A stretch of 64,000 nucleotides of DNA from Thermoplasmata archaeon (GTDB lineage Archaea > Thermoplasmatota > Thermoplasmata > Thermoplasmatales > Thermoplasmataceae): positions 1 to 64,000 of the forward strand of contig JAJZXU010000035.1 in the NCBI GenBank assembly GCA_021806235.1, written 5' to 3'. Shown here piece by piece: positions 37,129-38,041 of the stretch; position 1 is the first letter of the stretch, and every line of letters begins with the position of its first letter. The position numbers and the translations under genes are program-made. The notes under the pieces were generated by a model that saw nothing but the letters and a program-made list of their open reading frames with translations, had not been told where the DNA came from and did no database searches.

Positions 37129-38041
37129 ATGTCACTTTCAAATTCACTGTTTGAAGAAATAAAAAACGATGCATATAGATTTAATATAGGGAATACACCA
37201 TTATATAAGATTGATAATATTTATTCAAAACTTGAATATTATAATAAATTTGATTCCGTAAAAACCCGGGCTGCGTTTTTTATGATAGAATACGCAATAA
37301 AGACTGGAGACCTGACGAAAGATAAAATTATAATAGAGGCATCGTCAGGTAATACAGGCATTGCAATAGCAGGGATATCAAATCTGCTTGGATATAAAGC
37401 CGAAATAGTTATACCTGAAGGTGCAAGCGAGGAAACAAAAAAAATATTATTAAAATATAATGCAAATTTAATTTTAACTCCCGGAAATAGTACAGAAAAT
37501 TCAATAAAATACGTTGATGATAAAATTAAGGATAATCCTGGAAAATACTATAGATTAAACCAGCACAATAATGAAATAAATTCTAATGCACATTATTATA
37601 CAACAGGGCCTGAAATAGACCGCGAAATAAAAAATATTGGCTATGTTGTTGCTGGCATTGGTACAGGTGGAACCATAACTGGTCTGGCCAGATATTTTAA
37701 GGAGAAATATGATATAAAGGTTATTGGAATTATTCCAGATGAAGATTCGCACATATTTGGCCTGAGAAATCCATTTAAATCGGAAAACAAAGGGATAATA
37801 AATGATTATATAGATTATATTGATGAGATAGTAACAGTAAATGAAAATGAAGCATATAATGGAGTTAAGGAACTCAAGGAAAAATATAATTTATTTTGTC
37901 GGCCCTTCGTCGGGTGCTAATTACATCATATCAAAAAACATAAAAACAGATAAAAATATAGTTACAGTATTTCCAGATAACGGTGATAAATACAGATATA
38001 TTTATAAATTAAAGGATATACAGCTAATAAATAAAATTTAG
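37129..38041 (+). pseudogene. Cysteine synthase/cystathionine beta-synthase-family PLP enzyme interrupted by a single-base frameshift
   Basis: DSVKTRAA catalytic Lys, EASSGNTGIA, GIGTGGTITG in frame 1; VGPSSGANYIIS...TVFPDNGDKY continues in frame 2 after a TTTT tract at 37894-37897. Confidence 0.85.

Follow-up and report, generated by a model that had tools for sequence, protein, structure and literature searches.

Programmed frameshifting and the Ferroplasma locus

The +1 frameshift of bacterial RF2 (prfB) occurs at YUU_U, next to a slow A-site codon that is tied to the gene's own product or pathway; the unshifted product is expected to be inactive, and the arrangement is conserved across species. 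RF2 shift sites read CUU_U and, rarely, UUU_U (PMC5009743). Here we describe a gene of the cysteine-synthase family that resembles RF2 in these respects and lies in a 64,000-nucleotide stretch of archaeal DNA (assembly GCA_021806235.1, contig JAJZXU010000035.1, positions 1 to 64,000 of the forward strand; hereafter the window), which its sequence places in Ferroplasma. The gene is not of the RF2 type: its A-site codon is the sense codon UGU where RF2 has the stop UGA, the shift lies near the 3' end and has no Shine-Dalgarno stimulator, and the gene is archaeal and encodes a metabolic enzyme rather than a release factor.

The yeast elements Ty3 and Ty1 (GCG_AGU_U and CUU_AGG_C, respectively) also have a conserved stretch downstream of the shift, and the +1 codon, GUU (Val) in Ty3, is GUC, GUU or GUA in the present family. 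Here, however, the site lies in a cellular biosynthetic gene of an archaeon, at a Cys codon, and no retroelement is involved. Among archaea, fucA1 of Saccharolobus solfataricus likewise has its reading frame broken by a single base and depends on recoding for expression, but its shift is −1 at a heptameric A-rich slip site and full-length copies occur in other Sulfolobales, strain 98/2 excepted (PMC8211752), whereas the shift described here is +1 and clade-wide. According to a 2021 review, the −1 shift in fucA1 is the one demonstrated programmed frameshift in archaea, and a haloarchaeal virus provides the only suspected +1 case (PMC8211752). A 2016 review pointed out that frameshifting at hungry codons could yield starvation-specific trans-frame proteins, of which 'no examples are known' (PMC5009743). 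Our literature search, in which journal coverage was incomplete, found no report of a Ferroplasma cysteine-synthase shift site, and neither cysteine genes nor Ferroplasma appear in the GeneTack survey (PMC3711429; main text).

A cysteine-synthase-family gene split at a Cys codon

In the window, a zero-frame open reading frame (ORF) of 263 codons (37129-37920, plus strand) ends in ...KYNLFCRPFVGC (...YNLFCRPFVGC), and the +1 frame, which is free of stops from 37841, reads VGPSSGANYIISKNIKTDKNIVTVFPDNGDKYRYIYK... (VGPSSGANY...) as far as a stop at 38041. When TGTC is decoded as Val, the frames fuse to a 303-amino-acid protein with no internal stop. A first-pass annotation of this DNA had described an ORF split by a one-base frameshift at TTTT (37894-37897), and we confirmed its coordinates and frames; it overlooked that, in a gene for cysteine synthase, the codon in the A site at the shift is itself a Cys codon and invariant. 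The features are as follows.

37129..37896, plus strand: zero-frame part, enzyme residues 1-256, with the catalytic Lys45 at 37261-37263 and no Cys codon inside
37891..37899, plus strand: shift site TTA_TTT_TGT (zero-frame codons), consensus TTA_YTY_TGT in relatives; TTA and T invariant in 13/13 loci
37897..37899, plus strand: A-site Cys codon UGU; the skipped base is its T (37897), and the Val codon GTC begins at 37898
37898..38041, plus strand: +1-frame tail VGPSSGAN... with the Ser loop that binds pyridoxal phosphate (PLP); 47 codons, then the stop TAG
37910..37921, plus strand: TCGGGTGCTAAT, a stretch 3' of the shift that is nearly invariant in the alignment of shifted loci; possible stimulator
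37915..37920, plus strand: TGC, the second Cys codon of the zero frame, followed by that frame's stop TAA; each is invariant

What does the joined gene encode? It shares sequence family, fold and active-site loops with CysK/CysM (E. coli CysM, 2bhs), and its profile matches identify it as a PLP enzyme of this family, an assignment made at the family level; its substrate might be O-acetylserine, O-phosphoserine or another compound. The joined protein scored 225.8 bits against the TIGR01136 (cysKM) profile versus 197.8 for the truncated one, so that the tail is worth 28 bits, and 193.6 bits against Pfam PALP (cut-off 35); it remained under the curated NCBIfam equivalog cut-offs (cysK and cysM, 208.5 and 209.1 bits versus 351 and 394). 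The PALP fold, the catalytic Lys and the SSGNTG, GTGGT and SSGA loops were all found. As the first-pass annotation had proposed, the Lys, SSGNTG and GTGGT lie in frame 1, and skipping one T yields the conserved end of the family, the SSGAN loop being supplied solely by the +1 frame. We also predicted a structure with AlphaFold for the in-frame protein of Ferroplasma acidarmanus Fer1, which was translated unchanged, was modelled alongside unaltered relatives and is identical to the joined protein of Ferroplasma acidiphilum; the model (predicted local distance difference test, pLDDT, 92) matched CysM 2bhs with a template modelling (TM) score of 0.86, and other cysteine synthases matched as well.

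In the CysK/CysM family the SSGAN loop holds the PLP ring. Reading on from UGU in the zero frame adds six codons before UAA, and the short product of 261-263 amino acids should be inactive because it does not include this loop. F. acidiphilum also carries, near its gene for cysteinyl-tRNA synthetase (CysRS), an intact second CysK-like paralogue (L159:12624-13577, minus strand; 317 amino acids, 312.8 bits to cysKM). No serine acetyltransferase (cysE) match above cut-off was detected in the genus genomes searched, and the gene neighbourhood that we examined gave no clue to function.

Conservation of the break across one clade

An orthologue was found in all same-genus genomes searched, with the stop at the same position in eight of nine relatives, and assemblies from GTDB contributed further loci, for a total of 13 shifted loci when the window is counted. 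The +1 break falls at the identical codon in the 12 loci besides the window, down to ~56% protein identity. Comparison with sister strains, which the first-pass annotation had recommended, thus shows that the break also occurs outside this assembly. The 13 loci form one clade (support 99/99). All of its closest outgroups read through ...YGIYVGHSSGAN... or a similar sequence without a change of frame, and the joined protein aligns with in-frame relatives without an indel at the junction. The simplest history would be that the extra base was gained once and then retained through the whole clade. The ratio of nonsynonymous to synonymous substitution rates (dN/dS) is ~0.07-0.1 upstream of the shift; in the tail it is ~0.09-0.5 for five of the six pairs compared, and the remaining pair had changed too little for an estimate. 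By this measure both frames are coding and under purifying selection.

F. acidiphilum Y carries the shift; the junction predicted from its site is YNLLVGPSSGANYMASLAISENK and its short form ends in LLCWPFVGC. This genome was sequenced at 34x (454) and 639x (Illumina), and a descendant after ~550 generations was resequenced at 233x (PMC5473848). Fer1 is the sole genus member found without the break: one T is missing, and the coding sequence is otherwise identical to that of F. acidiphilum. Because TTA, TCG, GGT, GCT and AAT are still present at the Fer1 site, the in-frame copy looks like a recent loss of the T or a sequence corrected by hand. Over 3.78 kb, Fer1 (L045) and F. acidiphilum (L011) differ by four substitutions and a single internal indel, which is the shift-site T.

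Nucleotide conservation at the junction

The zero-frame consensus of the site is TAY AAY TTA YTY TGT NGG YCC YTC RTC GGS TGC TAA, in which TTA, the T forming TGT and the ending GGS-TGC-TAA are invariant. The TTTT tract, which the first-pass annotation had pointed out, does not have this status: it is present in 9 of 13 loci, and the others read CTCTGT (two) or CTTTGT (two). Phase variation at TTTT was rejected on the same ground, as the four-base run is not conserved. The extra base is a T at all 13 loci, following UUU, CUU or CUC, and the A-site codon is therefore always UGU.

Among 53 columns with an invariant amino acid of four- or sixfold degeneracy, three are also invariant in codon, TTA (−2), TCG (+4) and GCT (+6), and all three flank the shift (hypergeometric chance ~0.0015). 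Of the Ser codons in these genes, TCG is used least (13/273 away from the junction), and codon entropy elsewhere averages 1.49 bits. Since codon invariance is confined to the columns beside the shift, the junction nucleotides are under selection beyond the protein. The +1 codon is GUC, the match for tRNA-Val(GAC), in 10 of the 13 loci, despite GUC being a minority Val codon. An Rfam search returned no match.

A possible hungry-codon switch

These data make it highly probable that the locus undergoes conserved, functional +1 recoding, and we strongly infer that ribosomal slippage is the means by which the frames are joined. UGU occupies the A site in every shifted gene, and the codons adjoining it on either side vary. 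In 12 of 13 genes, that of the window included, UGU has no Cys codon ahead of it (L040 has one if translation begins at its first ATG), and its frequency is ~2.2 per 1000 codons; F. acidiphilum has one tRNA-Cys, and CysRS was found in 10/10 genomes. The site thus combines conserved shift-proneness with a slow A-site codon, slowness being judged from the rarity of UGU. F. acidiphilum feeds on amino acids and peptides and requires yeast extract (PMC5473848), so its cysteine supply may vary.

On this analysis, the gene probably relies on a hungry Cys codon for programmed +1 frameshifting, such that active CysK/CysM enzyme would be made when Cys-tRNA is low. The ribosome would decode 256 codons and arrive with the P-site tRNA on UUU (or CUU/CUC) and UGU in the A site. 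With plentiful Cys-tRNA, UGU would be decoded, followed by six more codons and UAA, giving the short form without the SSGAN loop. With scarce Cys-tRNA, the ribosome would pause and then slip by one base (UUU to UUU, CUU to UUU); alternatively, Val-tRNA might be accepted by the paused ribosome on the out-of-frame GUC. After the shift, active enzyme would be completed and cysteine restored. The logic would be that of RF2, where shortage of the A-site decoder leads to synthesis of the missing activity. At the CUC loci (two species), Val-tRNA would more likely read GUU out of frame, as in Ty3, because CUC re-pairs poorly after a slip. That the level of Cys-tRNA itself controls frameshifting is a hypothesis that we rate at even or slightly better.

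Two observations concern decoding more generally. A tRNA-Leu with A34 (anticodon AAG; L185:12571-12655) is 100% identical in all 10 Ferroplasma genomes; such a tRNA is unusual for archaea, and its reading of CUC, which occupies the P site in two loci, would require a non-Watson-Crick pair. In F. acidiphilum genes (L120-L211), in-frame TTT-TGT is avoided (6 seen versus 29 expected), but we rejected this as a site-specific signal because in-frame NNT followed by TGG is avoided more strongly still (TTT-TGG, 6 seen versus 102 expected).

Several points weigh against a cysteine-responsive switch. The alignment contains no conserved Shine-Dalgarno-like stimulator 5' of the slip codon; a search for conserved strong RNA structure on the 3' side gave only a weak 6-bp hairpin, with no compensatory changes and one pair broken in L038; and complementarity to 16S rRNA at the site was not above that of shuffles. 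Some in-frame relatives are likewise Cys-free, so a Cys-free upstream part does not set the shifted clade apart. The CysK-like paralogue has in-frame counterparts in the genus, and the shifted gene is therefore not the sole candidate cysteine synthase; Fer1 is moreover viable with an in-frame copy. Finally, slipperiness or RNA constraints, and not Cys sensing, could be the reason why the T and the second Cys codon have been retained.

Alternative explanations

The strongest rival is programmed +1 frameshifting at a constant ratio set by the slippery YUY_U site and its context, without cysteine sensing, in which the short form may have a role of its own, for example as a subunit partner. It fits all the conservation evidence equally, UGU would be a rare, slow codon in well-fed cells too, and the short product could be of importance in itself, given that its zero-frame ending G-C-stop is invariant; however, it leaves unexplained why UGU is present in all 13 cysteine-synthase-family genes, even after the poorly re-pairing CUC. 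We regard a constant ratio as a serious possibility, though less likely than not.

Could the tail instead be a separate polypeptide that joins the truncated enzyme? The window has an ATG at 37841, upstream in the +1 frame, which might serve as an internal start. In L014 and L040, however, a +1 stop lies 6-7 codons upstream of the junction with no ATG, GTG or TTG after it, so internal initiation cannot account for the tail throughout the clade, and a product of reinitiation past the zero-frame UAA would be missing SSGAN, which is conserved. Production of two polypeptides therefore has very little to recommend it. An equally slim chance attaches to repair at the RNA level, by polymerase slippage or editing that removes one base: a TTTT run would suit it, but the CTCTGT and CTTTGT loci have no four-base run, and four is short for slippage.

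A sequencing error or recent pseudogene, to which the missing base in the otherwise identical Fer1 gene might point, is refuted for the whole clade by 13 independent loci, the closed and deeply covered F. acidiphilum Y among them, with purifying selection on both parts. Of the four explanations that the first-pass annotation had listed, programmed +1 frameshifting is thus strongly supported, and error, pseudogene and phase variation fall away.

Other candidate shifts

A scan for other conserved shifts, comparing F. acidiphilum with the first 960 kb of genome G006, gave mostly ordinary overlapping genes and antisense frames and no clear second case, the scan being insensitive and not exhaustive. 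A precorrin-methylase-like frame (TIHIVGAGPGDPELL...) on the complement of G004:C1 overlaps the 300247-300906 ORF at its end and is conserved in G006. It has no ATG, GTG or TTG near the start of the open frame, which may reflect an unusual start codon or another frame change.

Implications

Automated annotation may label split genes of this kind as broken. The odds are about even that the Ferroplasma gene senses the level of Cys-tRNA through its own Cys codon and is the first natural example of hungry-codon frameshifting that turns on a biosynthetic gene, as well as the first cellular gene of an archaeon with a programmed +1 shift. Because the shift is clade-wide and falls on a Cys codon within a cysteine-synthase gene, the questions of starvation-specific trans-frame proteins and of +1 shifting in archaea become directly testable, with cultured F. 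acidiphilum as the test organism and the near-identical Fer1 as a natural in-frame control.
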